DNA from: an uncultured bacterium
GTDB lineage: Bacteria; Bacteroidota; Bacteroidia; Bacteroidales; CAIXTV01
NCBI GenBank assembly: GCA_903922465.1
Contig: CAIXTV010000135.1
Location: 1 to 33,420 of the forward strand
Length of the DNA stretch: 33,420 nucleotides
Direction: 5' to 3'
The notes beneath the pieces are model-generated. The model worked only from the letters and a program-made list of their open reading frames with translations, ran no database searches and was not told the origin of the DNA. Position numbers and translations under genes: made by a program. Positions 8,386 through 19,664 of this stretch are shown one piece after another. Position 1 is the first letter of the stretch; each line of letters starts with the position of its first letter.

Positions 8386-8619
8386 GGTATAAATTTTTTT
8401 TATGCCGGTATAAAAAATCGAAATGGCCGTATAAAAAATATTTATGCTGGTATAAAAAATCGAATTAGGGCTGTGACGAATTAAAACAGACGTAAAAAAA
8501 ATCGAAATAGCCCTATAAAAAATTATTAGGTCGGTATAAAAAATCGAGATAGCCTTGTGACAATTTATAGGGTCACCGTCACGAATCGAAATACTGCTAT
8601 ATAAAAAATTGCGGTGCCC
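8386..8619. repeat. Degenerate 21-bp array with phased A6 tracts
   Basis: Consensus ggtataaaaaatcgaaatggcc. Recognisable units begin near 8386, 8407, 8429, 8449, 8491, 8513, 8533 and 8598. Steps are 21, 22, 20, 42, 22, 20 and 65 bases, all close to multiples of 21. The gaps hold a second unit type containing tgtgacgaatt or tgtgacaattt (8472, 8556). The A6 tract recurs once per two helical turns, which predicts intrinsic curvature. It lies in the 527-base gap between the convergent asd and TonB-receptor genes. No credible open frame is present. The remainder of the gap (8237-8385, 8620-8763) is AT-rich with nothing recognisable beyond the weak hairpin. Confidence 0.8.
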
Positions 8620-14592: not shown

Positions 14593-16524
14593 CTATTTTC
14601 TCTTAACTAAATTAGGATTCACACCTCTTTTCTTTGCCATTTCTTCGAGCCGTTGTTGAAAGCCTGACTTTTTCACCGGTTTAATTTTATTTTCTTGAAT
14701 TTTGCGATGAATAGCATCTTCATCAACAAATTTGCGCATTATCCACATTTGGAAGAAAGTAAAAATATTGGCAAGGAAATAATAATAGCTTAGCCCCGAA
14801 GCAAAGTTATTAAACATCCCAAGGAACATAATGGGCATGAGATACATCATAACCTTCATGCCTGGCATTTGATTTCCCGTCGACATCATGTCGTTGTTTA
14901 TTTTTGTATAGAATATCGTTGTGATGGTCATTAATAAAGTAAACAAACTCACGTGGTCGCCATAGAAAGGGATGGTGAAGGGCAGGTTAAAAATTGAGTC
15001 GTACGACGATAAATCGTGGGCCCAAAGGAATGATTGTTGACGCAGTTCGATTGATGAAGGGAAGAAGCGGAACATCGCAATGAGAATTGGCATTTGCAAC
15101 AACATCGGAATGCAGCCCGCCATGGGGTTAACTCCAGCTTTTTTATATAAAGCCATATTAGCCTGTTGTTTCTTCATCGAGTCTTCCTTTTTGGGGAATT
15201 TCTTATTGATTTCTTCAATCTCAGGTTTTAGAACCCTCATTTTGGCTGAAGAAATATAAGTTTTGTAGGCAATTGGGAATAAGAAAAGCTTTAATAGAAT
15301 GGTAAGAATTAAAATGATGATCCCATAATTCATGTCGAAGCTACTTAGAAAATCGAACACTGGAATTACCGCAAAGCGATTAATCCAAGCAATAATGAAA
15401 AAGCTCCAGCCTAAAGGAATCTGGCGTTCGAGGTTTAAGTTGAATTTCTTTAATATTTTATATTTATTAGGTCCGAAATAAAACCACATCGATTGGCTTT
15501 CGCTTTGGGTATTTCCGAATTGCAAGCCAACATTTGCCTGCATAGTTTTTAAATAACCATCGTGATCGGGTTCGGTAATTGTTTTTATATCGGCATTAGC
15601 AAAGTTATTGTCGGCTACTAAAATGCTGGTAAAAAATTGTTGTTTGAACGATAACCATTTTACTTTGGTCTTCAACGATTTTTCTTCGTCTTTTGATTCG
15701 GAAAGATAATCAACCTCTTCGTCTAAGAATTTAAAATACACCGTAGAAGTAATTCTTTCATTTTTCAGGCTTCTTTCTTGCTGTTGTAGTTTTACGAACC
15801 AATCGAGGGCGAAATTGCCAGCATTTGAAGCCGATATATCTTGCATCCCAATCAGATTAATTTTTAATCCTAATTGAAAATCATTTCCTTTTAAGGTGTA
15901 AAGATATTCGATATAGCGCGATTCGTCGATAATACTATCGTTTTTTGCGGCATATAAACGCATCCCAAAATGAATAGAATCGTTGCCTGCAATTGAAATT
16001 GAATCTTTTCCGGTGGTAGAGGTTTCGTACCAGAAAGGCTTATAAACAAGATCGTTGGTAGAAATGTTGCGATTGTTCAGGAAAAAGTTCAAACCAAAAC
16101 GGCATGAATCGTTCTTAAATAAAAATAATGGAAGCGAATCGTAAGTCTTATATTTTTTCAATTGAACCGAAAAAACCTTACCCCCTTTTGATGATAAAGC
16201 GATTTTCATGTTTTCGTTTTCAAGAATGAAGCGCTTATTTTCGCCTTCAGCGGCATTCGAAAACAATGAATATTTATCTTTATTAATTTGAGTTTTGGTT
16301 ACTGTGTCAGTATTTGCAACAGCTACAGTGTTTTCGGGATTTGCAGTATCTTTTTTAACTGAAGCAAACTTAGCAGCCGAGTCGATTTTCCATTGCAAGG
16401 CGATGAGGGAGTCCTGTGTATGTTTCTTTCTTTGAACCTCCTCTTTCGATGGGGCGGTGATAATACCATACCCTATAAATAGAGTAAAAATGATGATTAA
16501 TCCTATTATTGTGTTTTTGTTCAT
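14593..16524 (-). CDS. yidC: Membrane protein insertase YidC
   Basis: Inserts and folds inner-membrane proteins, alone or with SecYEG. 643 residues, normal for Bacteroidota. TM1 lies at residues 5-23, then a Lys/Asp-rich linker, a large periplasmic beta-sandwich domain at about 95-355, and the conserved Oxa1 core. The core has a helix at 372-392, TM2 at 399-420 (GIIILILTILLKLFLFPIA), the cytoplasmic hairpin KMRVLKPEI, TM3 after NPMAGCIPMLLQMPILIAMF (466-485), and two more helices to about 605. A basic tail (IKPVKKSGFQQRLEEMAKKRG) suits ribosome contact. It has its own -7 element. In many Bacteroidota yidC directly follows pyrG; here about 3.1 kb of accessory sequence lies between them. Confidence 0.97.
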   Translation of the reverse strand: MNKNTIIGLIIIFTLFIGYGIITAPSKEEVQRKKHTQDSLIALQWKIDSAAKFASVKKDTANPENTVAVANTDTVTKTQINKDKYSLFSNAAEGENKRFILENENMKIALSSKGGKVFSVQLKKYKTYDSLPLFLFKNDSCRFGLNFFLNNRNISTNDLVYKPFWYETSTTGKDSISIAGNDSIHFGMRLYAAKNDSIIDESRYIEYLYTLKGNDFQLGLKINLIGMQDISASNAGNFALDWFVKLQQQERSLKNERITSTVYFKFLDEEVDYLSESKDEEKSLKTKVKWLSFKQQFFTSILVADNNFANADIKTITEPDHDGYLKTMQANVGLQFGNTQSESQSMWFYFGPNKYKILKKFNLNLERQIPLGWSFFIIAWINRFAVIPVFDFLSSFDMNYGIIILILTILLKLFLFPIAYKTYISSAKMRVLKPEIEEINKKFPKKEDSMKKQQANMALYKKAGVNPMAGCIPMLLQMPILIAMFRFFPSSIELRQQSFLWAHDLSSYDSIFNLPFTIPFYGDHVSLFTLLMTITTIFYTKINNDMMSTGNQMPGMKVMMYLMPIMFLGMFNNFASGLSYYYFLANIFTFFQMWIMRKFVDEDAIHRKIQENKIKPVKKSGFQQRLEEMAKKRGVNPNLVKRK

Positions 16525-16549
16525 TTAAAAGTGTTGATTATTTAAGGCG

Positions 16550-16558
16550 GCAAAGATA
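16550..16558 (-). promoter_or_regulatory. -7 element (TATCTTTGC) of yidC
   Basis: Perfect -7 match on the minus strand, 25 bases before the yidC start. No good -33 at the usual spacing. It would allow transcription independent of pyrG. Confidence 0.5.
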
Positions 16559-16847
16559 ATTGAATTCGCCCAATTATAGGATGTAATAATCAAGCTTGTT
16601 AAATAAAGTGTTCTAGACCTTTAGGATGAAGACTTTTAGAGGAACGAAAACCACCCAAAGCAGAGTTTAATTATTGTGTTTTTGCCTTTATTCCCGGGCT
16701 GTATTTTGTGTTTTGTTTAATGATTATTCAGAAATCATCTTATATCCTTATGGTTTTATTATTCAATTTTAAATCGTCACCGAAATATAATTCCTTTACT
16801 TATTCTGTCAAAGTCTACAATTTATAATTTTCTTCTCTATCAAAAAA

Positions 16848-16887
16848 TAAAAACAGCACAACATATTTACAATGTGTGCTGTTTTTA
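16848..16887. terminator. Bidirectional hairpin terminator
   Basis: A 13-bp perfect stem (16848-16860 with 16875-16887, core aaaacagcaca/tgtgctgtttt) around a 14-base loop. A tracts on one side and T tracts on the other suit both directions. It sits between the 20-bp repeat array and yidC, so on the minus strand it would end any transcript crossing the array. Confidence 0.65.
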
Positions 16888-16900
16888 ATATCATTCAGAA

Positions 16901-17220
16901 ATTGGGCTTCCTTTTGACAAATTGGGCTTCCTTTTGACAAATTGGGCTTCCTTTTGACAAATCGGGCTTCTTTTTGACAAATCGGGCTTCCTTTTGACAA
17001 ATCGGGCTTCCTTTTGACAAATTGGGCTTCTTTTTGACAAATCGGGCTTCCTTTTGACAAATCGGGCTTCTTTTTGACAAATTGGGCTTCTTTTTGACAA
17101 ATTGGGCTTCTTTTTGACAAATCGGGCTTCTTTTTGACAAATTGGGCTTCCTTTTGACAAATTGGGCTTCCTTTTGACAAATCGAGCTTTTTTTTCTGAA
17201 ATCGAAATTCCTCTTTTGAA
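16901..17220. repeat. Tandem array of 20-bp units
   Basis: Fourteen units with exact 20-bp period (16901-17180), then two decayed units (17181-17220). The consensus is atYgggcttcYttttgacaa. The 14 units differ only at position 3 (T/C) and position 11 (C/T). In order the pairs are TC TC TC CT CC CC TT CC CT TT TT CT TC TC, so all four combinations occur. There are no unique spacers, so it is not CRISPR. The minus strand is open in all three frames because the unit contains no stop, giving Lys-rich 20-residue repeats, but the longest such frame runs through the terminator hairpin and is not a convincing gene. The rest of 16525-17286 is AT-rich and holds only the yidC promoter element and the hairpin. 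Confidence 0.95.
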
Positions 17221-17275
17221 ATCCTAGAATAGCTGCATTTTTCTATTAAAATCATTCAAAAATCAAACAAATTAA

Positions 17276-17300
17276 TTTATGCTAAACTATTCAGCATAAA
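17276..17300 (-). terminator. Small hairpin over the FN3-gene stop codon
   Basis: tttatgct (17276-17283) pairs perfectly with agcataaa (17293-17300) around nine bases that include the stop codon. It is AT-rich and lacks a T run, so a terminator role is possible but weak. Confidence 0.3.
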
Positions 17301-17853
17301 CATCAAGGACATAAGTCCAAGCACTCTTCCCTTCAGCTGAAGAGGTTTGTGCTTTGAAATAATATTTTTGCCCAATGGTGCAACCACCAATAAAGCCAGT
17401 AGAATTGTGGCTAAAGTCGGCAACATCCCAATGGATATTATCACTACTTATCATAAATAAAACAGCAAAGCGACAAGCAAGAGGTTTGCAGTACAAATCA
17501 AAAGTGCCCGGAAGCACACCATGCTCGACTTCAAGCAATTCTCTTTCGCTTGTTTTGCGAGTTATAACGTATGCATCTGTGCCTTCAATAATCGTCACCG
17601 CATTCGCTAAATCGGCATCAGCCGCTTCCTGAATGGAGGCAAGGATTTTATCCTTAGCAATATCAACATTTAACTCGGCCGCATCGCGAGCAGCAATAGT
17701 ATTCCCTCCGCCTGATATGGCGGCTTGAATGGCTGCACGAAAAGTTGCAATATATCCCAAAGCTGTGGTTAAATAAGCTACCAAAGAGATAAACAAAGAA
17801 TTGTTTTTCATTTTGGTCCACGAACCTTCGAGATAGTCCGCTTTTTCTGACAC
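17287..17853 (-). CDS. Fibronectin type III-like protein, GTG start
   Basis: 188 residues. The first 90 are helical and Ala-rich (AAIQAAISGGGNTIAARDAAE, IAKDKILASIQEAADADLANAV). A linker follows, then a single FN3-like domain at about 125-188 with SSDNIHWDVADF, GFIGGCTIGQKYYFKAQTSS and SAWTYVLDVYAE. The same layout (helical spacer plus one FN3) recurs in short hypothetical proteins of Bacteroidota and phages. No signal peptide is visible. The start is GTG. In-frame sequence upstream (to a TAA TAG at about 17910-17905) still reads like protein but has no ATG, while an ATG at 17921 opens a different, Lys-rich frame. The 5' end may be damaged, or GTG may be genuine. Function unknown. It lies just upstream of the 20-bp array. 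Confidence 0.7.
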   Translation of the reverse strand: MSEKADYLEGSWTKMKNNSLFISLVAYLTTALGYIATFRAAIQAAISGGGNTIAARDAAELNVDIAKDKILASIQEAADADLANAVTIIEGTDAYVITRKTSERELLEVEHGVLPGTFDLYCKPLACRFAVLFMISSDNIHWDVADFSHNSTGFIGGCTIGQKYYFKAQTSSAEGKSAWTYVLDVYAE

Positions 17854-17972
17854 ATTGCTTTTTTCGTGATAAGCTGCTTTTGGCGCTTTATCTTCGAAGT
17901 CTGACTATTATTTTTTGTCATTACAATAAATGTTTGGGTTAATAATTCGGGTTTAGGACACAATTCGGCGCT

Positions 17973-18002
17973 GACCTCCGAGGTCCGACAATCGCATGTC
18001 GG
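17973..18002. other. Twin GC-rich hairpins
   Basis: gacct-ccg-aggtc (17973-17985) is followed, sharing one base, by ccgaca-atcgca-tgtcgg (17985-18002). Both stems are perfect. Neither is followed by a T run, so neither is a typical terminator. They resemble the ends or core of a small palindromic element. Confidence 0.5.
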
Positions 18003-18206
18003 TCGTTACCTTATGCTTATAACTCAGCCACTAAATGGTGGTGGCTTGTTTTTGTGCGATTTCGCTTCAATGTTGTGGCGATGCTGCACTATAAAGCTTG
18101 CAGATGATATTTTGAGCCTCGAAGGCTTGCTGTAAATGATTTTTTTCATCTTAGTTCAATTAAAATTTAGGAGGTAAAAATACTGCCAATAATTGTTATA
18201 TAGATG

Positions 18207-18246
18207 AATAATTCCACTATAAATCTAAATAATTCCAGAATAAATC
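18207..18246. repeat. Imperfect direct repeat, 21-bp period
   Basis: aataattccactataaatc and aataattccagaataaatc begin 21 bases apart and match at 17 of 19 positions. Too few copies to call an array, but it has the same period as the larger arrays. Confidence 0.5.
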
Positions 18247-18383
18247 AAAATCACGAAAGTGAAGCTCTGAAACCTTTATTTATAAGGCAATATAGAAGGT
18301 CGGAAAAATCTCTGATGAAAGAGTATATCAAAATAAAAATAAGAAATAGGCTGCGTTGTTTCGATCGAAAAGAGTAAGGCTGA

Positions 18384-19235
18384 CTAATTTTTAATTTTTC
18401 CGATGTCTGAAATGATGCTTTTTACTTTGCTGATGATTAATTCAAATTTTTCGGGGTTAGCTAAATTATCGGTGCATAATTTGTTGAGTTGAGCAGCAGA
18501 AACTGCTTTCCCATCACAACGAATATGTCGTGCGGCCATTTTCATATATCCCTTTCCATGATCAGCAGAAATATAATGCCCGTCTTTAAGGAAGCGTAAA
18601 AGCAAGGCCAGGTGCCCAAGATATTCTTCTTTGCAATAGAAAACAGCAATTTCCTTCTTGTTATTGAAGAATTTCATCAGAACAAAATCCCGGGAAAACC
18701 AAGGTAAAGCTAACATTATTCTTTCAAGTTCATCACTTTGATTTCGACCCCTCAACCATTTCACGCAACTTCCCTTTAATTTTTTAATGAGAACCTTCTT
18801 TTTGAGAACATTAAAATCATACGATTGAAGTTTCGCGAAAATCAGCGTTACCAATTCGTCTTCTCCTGGTTTCATAATGCTGCAATAGTTAATTATCATC
18901 TCAATTAAAATGCCTTCTAGAACTTTTCCGTTTTTCGGATGCTTATTAATTACTTCTTGGTGAATTTCAAATAATAATTCACAAGTGATGAGAGTTAAAT
19001 TTTCTTTCTTATGTGTAGCAATATCCAACGAAAGATGGTGAAATGTGTTGTAAACAAGTTTGTGAACTTTCTTTTGATTCATCTCCAATTGCGGATTTCT
19101 GCTACATAAAAACTGAAGTTCAGAAGTATATTTTTCCAATAAAGAGTGAATTTTATGGAAACCCTTGACATGCTGCTTAATAACAGTAACAATTGCGGGT
19201 GTTAGTTTTTCTTTTTTATATTTATTTTTAGTCAT
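18384..19235 (-). CDS. Unknown helical protein, 283 residues
   Basis: I do not recognise this protein. It is basic (many Lys), without a signal peptide or membrane segment, and looks all-helical. Residues 1-50 are Lys-rich. The middle is Leu/Ile/Lys helices (ELLFEIHQEVINKHPKNGK, LIFAKLQSYDFNVLKKKVL). The C-terminal 90 residues (about 195-283) contain YLGHLALLLRFLKDGHYIS, then KGYMKMAARHIRCDGKAVSAAQLNKLC. That faintly resembles the C-terminal segment of RteC-like and other mobile-element regulatory proteins of Bacteroides (a helix, a G-x-I turn, then DGK), but this is a weak visual match. It has its own good promoter and sits between pyrG and yidC, which are usually adjacent, so it is probably accessory DNA. 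Confidence 0.65.
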   Translation of the reverse strand: MTKNKYKKEKLTPAIVTVIKQHVKGFHKIHSLLEKYTSELQFLCSRNPQLEMNQKKVHKLVYNTFHHLSLDIATHKKENLTLITCELLFEIHQEVINKHPKNGKVLEGILIEMIINYCSIMKPGEDELVTLIFAKLQSYDFNVLKKKVLIKKLKGSCVKWLRGRNQSDELERIMLALPWFSRDFVLMKFFNNKKEIAVFYCKEEYLGHLALLLRFLKDGHYISADHGKGYMKMAARHIRCDGKAVSAAQLNKLCTDNLANPEKFELIISKVKSIISDIGKIKN

Positions 19236-19664
19236 ACAACATTCGATGTAATTTAGTGGGAAAAGCGGAAAGAATATTTCAAAAATACGATTATATTTCT
19301 AAACCAACATCGATGTGAAAACAAAACAAAGAAAAAGAAGGAAACTTCTAAAATGGGGTTATGGTCTTTTTAATCGAGAAAACAGCATCAATATACTAGT
19401 TCAGACTTCAAATTATTAAAGAAAAAAAACTTATCAAAAACGAACGAATCTGATTGATTAACAAACCATATTGAGAATTAGCCTTATTGTTTTAGTAAAA
19501 TAAAATTGATAAAATGCAAAGAAGATTTTTATCCAGAAACATCAATATTTTTTGGTGAAATTCCTTCTAATTTTCATAATTATTAAAACTAGTCCGTCTT
19601 AAAACAAGAATCTTTTTTTGTTTAAAACAAATGAATTGAATGGATTTAAATTTAGGATTCGAAT
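19236..19664. other. Gene-free AT-rich region downstream of pyrG
   Basis: 429 bases. It holds the promoter of the unknown 283-residue gene (19280-19307) and otherwise only AT-rich sequence with no clear hairpin, RNA gene or repeat. Confidence 0.5.
19280..19307 (-). promoter_or_regulatory. Promoter of the unknown 283-residue gene
   Basis: Minus strand: TTG at 19307-19305, 17 bases, then TATTTTTG at 19287-19280. Predicts a 40-base leader to 19235. Confidence 0.55.

Follow-up and report, generated by a model that had tools for sequence, protein, structure and literature searches.

The stretch of DNA analysed here, referred to below as the window, comprises 33,420 nucleotides and is the complete contig C135 of a 5.02-Mb, metagenome-type draft genome in 312 contigs. 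The related entries in genome_contigs are MAGs assigned to Bacteroidales or Bacteroidetes, and the gene content of the contig includes yidC, pyrG and a sigma factor gene. The 3.1 kb from yidC to pyrG (16525..19664) contain a tandem array (16900..17179) and two genes, here called gene X and gene283. In our survey of 58 loci, yidC and pyrG were both seen in 28 relatives, and in all 28 they are same-strand neighbours 26-500 bp apart. Gene X (17287..17853, minus strand) is listed with a GTG start and encodes 188 amino acids with an FN3-like C-terminal domain; the array lies on its 3' side, 105 bp from the stop. Just left of the array, and hence with the array between it and the gene X stop, a terminator-like hairpin followed by a T run (16848..16887, minus strand) was recognised as an opposite-strand self-match. 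The 63-nt stretch at the hairpin folds at -18.7 kcal/mol, and a simple terminator scan did not list 16848..16887 among its calls. Gene283 (18384..19235, minus strand) encodes 283 amino acids; its family, which has no Pfam match, is represented here by five detected members (window, C81, C295, C150 and C79).

Contig C81 of the same genome carries a copy of gene X, 70% identical, with a copy of gene283 upstream in the same order. This contig starts with a 20-bp array, the third in the genome sample, located 89 bp from the stop of the gene X copy. Homology of the window and C81 units was suggestive by eye and was dropped as not significant (p 0.12-0.19). At 17850-17910 the N-terminal part of gene X shows a one-base gap in the alignment with the C81 copy; therefore the true start of gene X is uncertain and the window copy may be decaying. 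Two further arrays with a 21-bp period and no adjoining gene of the gene X family are located in the window at 8408-8565 and 159-235, one with a 42/84-bp higher order and one consisting of heptamers.

Anatomy and turnover of the array

TRF placed the array at 16899-17182 with a period of 20, 14.2 copies and a score of 484. Cutting into 20-mers from position 16900 gave exactly 14 head-to-tail units, AATYGGGCTTYCTTTTGACA on the plus strand, the last ending at 17179; the array itself was assigned no strand. Variation among the 14 units is confined to unit positions 4 (8 T, 6 C) and 12 (8 C, 6 T), the remaining 18 of 20 positions being invariant, and the units follow one another as TC TC TC CT CC CC TT CC CT TT TT CT TC TC. 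Thus the original prediction of 14 units of 20 bp with two variable C/T sites was confirmed, as were all four combinations of the two sites and their counts (5 TC, 3 CT, 3 CC, 3 TT). Both sites are real, and the numbering proposed for them, 3 and 11, is shifted by one base relative to ours. The range assigned to the array, 16901-17220, likewise holds in part, the last two units within it (17180-17199 and 17200-17219) being decayed and different from the rest. Decayed units, matching the C135 and C182 units, extend over 17180..17239 without strand at the right edge, and the left edge is sharp. The first of them bears a CGAG allele that is also found in a second array on contig C182. Identical haplotypes adjoin in 5 of 13 neighbouring pairs (p 0.11), and a clustering of like haplotypes was accordingly dropped.

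The longest exact repeat within the array is 53 bp, a length that should suit usual short-read assembly, so that the number and order of units are probably correct as assembled. With head-to-tail units of tens of base pairs at high identity, the array taken alone is an ordinary young minisatellite and, as an array, a new member of that class. The unit number comes from one assembly; the 393 genomes searched contain no other of the same family. A CRISPR array was rejected since the units abut without unique spacers, and CRISPR-like directional growth since edge polarity was absent over 49 arrays. A protein-coding repeat was also rejected: there is just an array-sized ORF (16815-17255), with one sub-threshold Pfam match. 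The period of 20 is not divisible by 3, and an Rfam scan of the window returned no match. Predicted DNA curvature exceeded that of unit-permuted copies in the window array (z 3.7) and in the C182 array (z 2.9); as a general array feature it was dropped, the mean z being only 0.48 over 56 arrays adjoining genes of the gene X family.

Exchange between units, put forward earlier as the source of the four combinations, is the likely one, through slippage or unequal exchange that breaks within units. A chimeric unit would result when a tandem duplication, or a deletion, breaks between the two variable sites. In simulations conditioned on two common variants and run at arbitrarily chosen rates, breakpoints inside units produced all four combinations in 54% of such arrays, and unit-aligned breakpoints in 0%. 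The four combinations therefore demand no special machinery. The array carries no further substitutions, which suggests recent homogenisation only, and it is because of this homogenisation that the other unit positions appear fixed.

A search for the 20-mer elsewhere, as had been advised, returned a second array in the same genome and none in the 392 other genomes of the order. The second array (G000:C182:14920-15198, locus L029) has 14 full units and sits between two divergent genes with no gene of the gene X family alongside, and the window flanks are absent there. It varies at unit position 4 and, in place of 12, at position 6, where its units are evenly divided and those of the window all agree; 7 of its 14 units bear the CGAG allele. 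One unit family is hence found at two sites with one shared and two private transition polymorphisms. Selection on the 20-mer itself, one of the alternatives first raised, is not supported, given the different second site on C182 and the absence of the unit from the other genomes of the order that were searched. Exact patterns of the unit gave no match in genome_contigs or in viral contigs, and phage records held no match to the array. The window flanks (16540-16899 and 17160-17290) returned elsewhere in the genome only array matches or short weak ones.

Arrays are abundant in this genome. TRF detected 116 in 80 stretches (1.17 Mb) and none in Markov-resampled copies; this sample of 1.17 of the 5.02 Mb includes contigs chosen from pattern matches, so the array density is not unbiased. 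Of the 96 arrays of at least 60 bp, 56 had their best lag at exactly 21, three at 20 and four at 22. Their units are mostly unrelated, and some families recur. In the 21-bp arrays, lags of 42, 84 and 126 match at 0.82, 0.79 and 0.81, against 0.68, 0.69 and 0.64 for lags of 21, 63 and 105; even multiples of 21 match better, which points to a 42-bp higher order. The sampled stretches of relatives contained fewer arrays, and 21 was again the commonest period (5/16 and 4/15). At locus L168 (3750-4450, G000:C54) a dispersed MITE-like element was observed with a 21/42-bp array in its middle, shared flanks on both sides and matches on C124, C67, C169 and C89.

Linkage of arrays to the gene X family

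Profile searches assigned gene X to an uncurated, diverged family of proteins of about 200 amino acids with an FN3-like C-terminal domain. Pfam fn3 was matched by 5 of 26 members, and the family profile matches FN3 chains of the PDB over approximately its last 90 positions. The window protein by itself has no significant match in Pfam, NCBIfam or PADLOC (the last at E 0.1), and its single-sequence structure prediction (mean pLDDT 40) suggested only N-terminal helices. At E 1e-10 the family is represented in 21 of the 393 genomes of the order, often by more than one gene; copy numbers are lower bounds, as at most eight candidates were scored per genome.

An array with a period of 20-22 bp lies within 800 bp of 67 of the 84 distinct family entries, or of 66 out of 83 when a stop-split gene counted twice (L294) is merged, and of 50 out of the 59 entries with at least 800 bp of flank on both sides. 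Arrays are located 5' only in 48 entries, 3' only in 16 and on both sides in three; several of the 17 entries lacking an array adjoin contig ends or another family gene. For comparison by Fisher tests, control ORFs of at least 150 amino acids were scored by identical criteria: arrays were near 14 of 428 and near 11 of 191 in two sets from relatives in the order, both covering the surroundings of yidC and drawn largely from genomes that lack the gene X family, and near 92 of 588 in the genome of the window. As a control within the same loci, array cover peaked at 200-400 bp from the gene, reaching 31% 5' and 17.5% 3' of it, and was only 0.4-4% beyond 800 bp. Array and gene are 27-621 bp apart where the array is 3' and 54-707 bp apart where it is 5'; across the family the arrays show no strand bias, and the side of the array changes five times on the family tree. 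The phase-variable 3' element of the original prediction is right as to the position of the array at gene X, and across the family the array is more often 5'. Sense terminators separate array and gene in 7 of 49 5' arrays; a terminator bias was dropped for small numbers.

In the sample from the genome of the window, all six family genes lie 83-148 bp from an array, and a family gene was detected at just 6 of 53 array clusters, so that arrays live alone as well; the C182 array, with the window's unit, lacks one too. Some arrays without a family gene adjoin proteins of 300-330 amino acids, and the rest are orphans like that of C182. Six of eight such proteins scanned weakly matched carboxypeptidase-regulatory-like domains at the C-terminal end. 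The loci L181 (2-1258) and L182 (13068-14429) encode two homologous proteins of this kind, about 320 amino acids long with a carboxypeptidase-regulatory-like end, each with an array of 22-bp period on the 3' side, and perhaps represent a second array-linked family with its own period. Tandem arrays of 8 bp were also observed 3' of two family genes of genome G002, with the units TAACTGAG (L234, 1359-1420) and TCAATTAC (L240, 2119-2165), the former array resembling the published TAACTGA repeats.

Period and sequence of the linked arrays

In a protein tree of 64 family members, the clade of the window gene comprises nine rows with support of 100/100 and holds seven of the eight period-20 arrays, which come from three family-level groups. 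At both exceptions within the clade a contig end truncates the 3' flank, and the one period-20 array outside it belongs to L289. The period label changes four times on the tree compared with a mean of 7.6 after shuffling, and none of 500 shuffles was as low. The number falls to two changes in a recount without the two contig-cut loci (L245 and L229), whose label derives from a minor 5' repeat and which were kept in the main tree. L246 (24-bp repeat) was excluded, L249 (40 bp) was scored as 20 and L295_1983 (22 bp) was not counted. The association of period with clade may in part be inertia by descent.

Five locus pairs have homologous DNA on both sides of the array, with flank identities from 94/89 to 77/76%; a sixth pair was removed, as one gene had been counted twice. 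Unit identity at the best rotation is 0.48-0.62 in these pairs, all at 21 bp, compared with a shuffled-unit baseline with a mean of 0.46 and a 95th percentile of 0.57. The cleanest pair, L274 and L255 (both G002), shares at 94% identity a 434-bp leader without a long ORF that reaches the array edge. Its two arrays are nearly unrelated, with residual short stretches of 75-83% similarity. Thus each copy has units of its own, which change much more rapidly than the flanking DNA, and the period stays at 21 bp or, in the clade of the window gene, at 20. The conserved feature looks to be the spacing and not the sequence.

The hairpin potential of single units is weak across the arrays of the window genome; in 58 family-linked arrays it gave a Fisher p of 0.0025, and in the 42-bp consensus of 46 such arrays p was 2e-11, with 37% at p<0.05. 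Hairpin units as an explanation were dropped since the signal is absent in 46 other arrays of the genome (p 0.83) and in the window unit (p 0.36).

Known systems and competing explanations

In type III toxin-antitoxin loci such as ToxIN, the endoribonuclease gene is preceded by an array that encodes RNA repeats at least about 35 nt long. These loci may be considered nearest in logic by analogy, as in both cases a small protein gene adjoins a tandem array with a unit particular to the locus; they differ from the present one in that the units here are 20-22 bp, the window array is 3', the protein is FN3-like and the arrays lack strand bias. Such a locus was rejected, since the window array lies 3', 48 of 84 family entries having theirs on the 5' side alone, and since the profile matches are to FN3 rather than a ToxN-like endoribonuclease, with no PADLOC match of the window protein at E 0.1. 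Plasmid iterons and parC-type centromere repeats are sequence-specific and occur on replicons with Rep or Par genes. They are likewise direct repeats about two helical turns apart adjoining a gene, whereas here yidC, pyrG and a sigma factor gene are found on the contig and the units are not conserved. Nearest in anatomy are BrickBuilt and MITEPgRS/464 of Porphyromonas gingivalis with 23- and 41-nt units, which, in the part of that report available here, are also intergenic, spacerless arrays of a Bacteroidales species with dispersed copies and variable unit number (PMC4596501). According to the same part, one unit family is common to their copies, which have a leader, a tail and IS5-like terminal repeats; it mentions no linked protein family, in contrast to the private unit and linked gene found here (PMC4596501). 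A MITE of the BrickBuilt type is not supported, as no leader or tail shared by several loci was found and the window flanks recur only weakly. The heptamer TAACTGA forms abundant intergenic short direct repeats in Beggiatoaceae, Cyanobacteria and some Bacteroidetes, with proposed regulatory roles; as far as the available part of that paper describes them, they are a single fixed heptamer near start codons, whereas our units are 20-22 bp and locus-specific (PMC4679880).

The existence of a gene-plus-minisatellite module and its turnover are well supported by these data. The module would pair a small gene, whose protein has an FN3-like end, with a private array of 20-22-bp units flanking it on one side, in most cases at 50-400 bp. 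Slippage or unequal exchange that breaks within units would homogenise the array, and the spacing of the units would be kept at about two helical turns, 20 bp in the clade of the window gene and 21 bp in most others. Whether the window array is the non-coding half of such a module, repeated in Bacteroidales and with its spacing read by geometry, we regard as evenly balanced. Under neutral concerted evolution an array is expected to diverge at about the pace of its flanks. Faster divergence at a constant period suggests either local hypermutation with a length constraint or diversifying selection with a spacing constraint, and one face per unit would be the simplest such constraint because 21 bp is close to two turns of B-DNA. 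The array might then serve as a platform in cis, with the product of the neighbouring gene or a partner occupying a single face of the DNA at every unit, so that geometry and not base sequence would be read; this role is a conjecture, held tentatively and at clearly below an even chance. Units of 20 bp, which by the twist values we assume are out of helical phase, count against the platform, as do the small curvature excess over all modules, the acidic window protein (pI 5.1) and a family that is not basic overall (median pI 7.9), the last two also speaking against direct DNA binding. The 17 of 84 entries without an array, the lone arrays and the non-significant likeness of the window and C81 units count against the module explanation. 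More tentative than the module with its geometric reading is the further proposal that each FN3-like family gene is tied to a private satellite whose sequence outpaces the flanks, whose period (20, 21 or perhaps 22 bp) is handed down along with the protein clade, and whose spacing would be read, making it a copy-specific identity tag.

A mobile or dispersing element might instead carry gene X together with a neutral, fast-changing minisatellite. The linkage would then be hitch-hiking, and the period would persist since single-unit indels rarely take over an array. We consider this rather unlikely, even though the cassette interrupts the normally adjacent yidC and pyrG and is duplicated on C81, the window unit is present on C182 without gene X, another array of the genome lies inside a dispersed element with shared flanks, and minisatellites within MITEs are known in Porphyromonas from the part of the report considered above (PMC4596501). 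The window flanks are single-copy in the genome save for short weak matches, no transposase adjoins gene X, and gene X has no match in phage or plasmid records. A search for terminal inverted repeats, confined to L274/L255 and to 9-mers near the homology ends, gave two overlapping matches in one copy and none in the other, hence no repeat common to both. Moreover, a neutral array should presumably not outpace its flanks while holding a period of 21.

That gain and loss of units act as a copy-number switch on gene X expression, through promoter spacing when 5' or transcript end and stability when 3', is improbable. The distances of 27-621 bp 3' or 54-707 bp 5' and the position of the window array between the gene X stop and the terminator-like hairpin would suit such a switch, but there is no Bacteroidota-type promoter match in 16401-17300, the array side changes five times over the family, sense terminators intervene in only 7 of 49 5' arrays, and a switch does not require private sequence at a fixed 20 or 21 bp. 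The protein-binding ladder originally suggested is, in its sequence-specific form, very improbable: the 18 fixed positions over 14 units, which together with the recurrence on C182 speak for it, are accounted for by recent homogenisation, position 6 is invariant in the window array and equally divided on C182, arrays adjoining homologous genes carry other units, and the window unit is absent from every other genome examined. We find it just as hard to believe that there is no special link, the window array being a chance minisatellite in an array-rich genome or a misrepresentation in the assembly. The 116 arrays per 1.17 Mb, the lack of a recognised family gene at 47 of 53 array clusters and the draft metagenome-type assembly in 312 contigs point in that direction, but the linkage holds across 21 genomes and against the controls, and the longest internal exact repeat is 53 bp.

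To our knowledge, no other protein family has its genes beside arrays of one period and unrelated sequence, and in open-licence papers we found no description of a gene-linked array of fixed period. We know of no kind to which the gene-array module could be assigned. The linkage provides a handle on why some Bacteroidales genomes abound in arrays of about 21 bp, and it allows selection on spacing to be told apart from selection on sequence in a way open to experimental test. If the proposed explanation is true, the module would be a new kind in bacteria, in which the spacing of DNA is read in the cell instead of its sequence.
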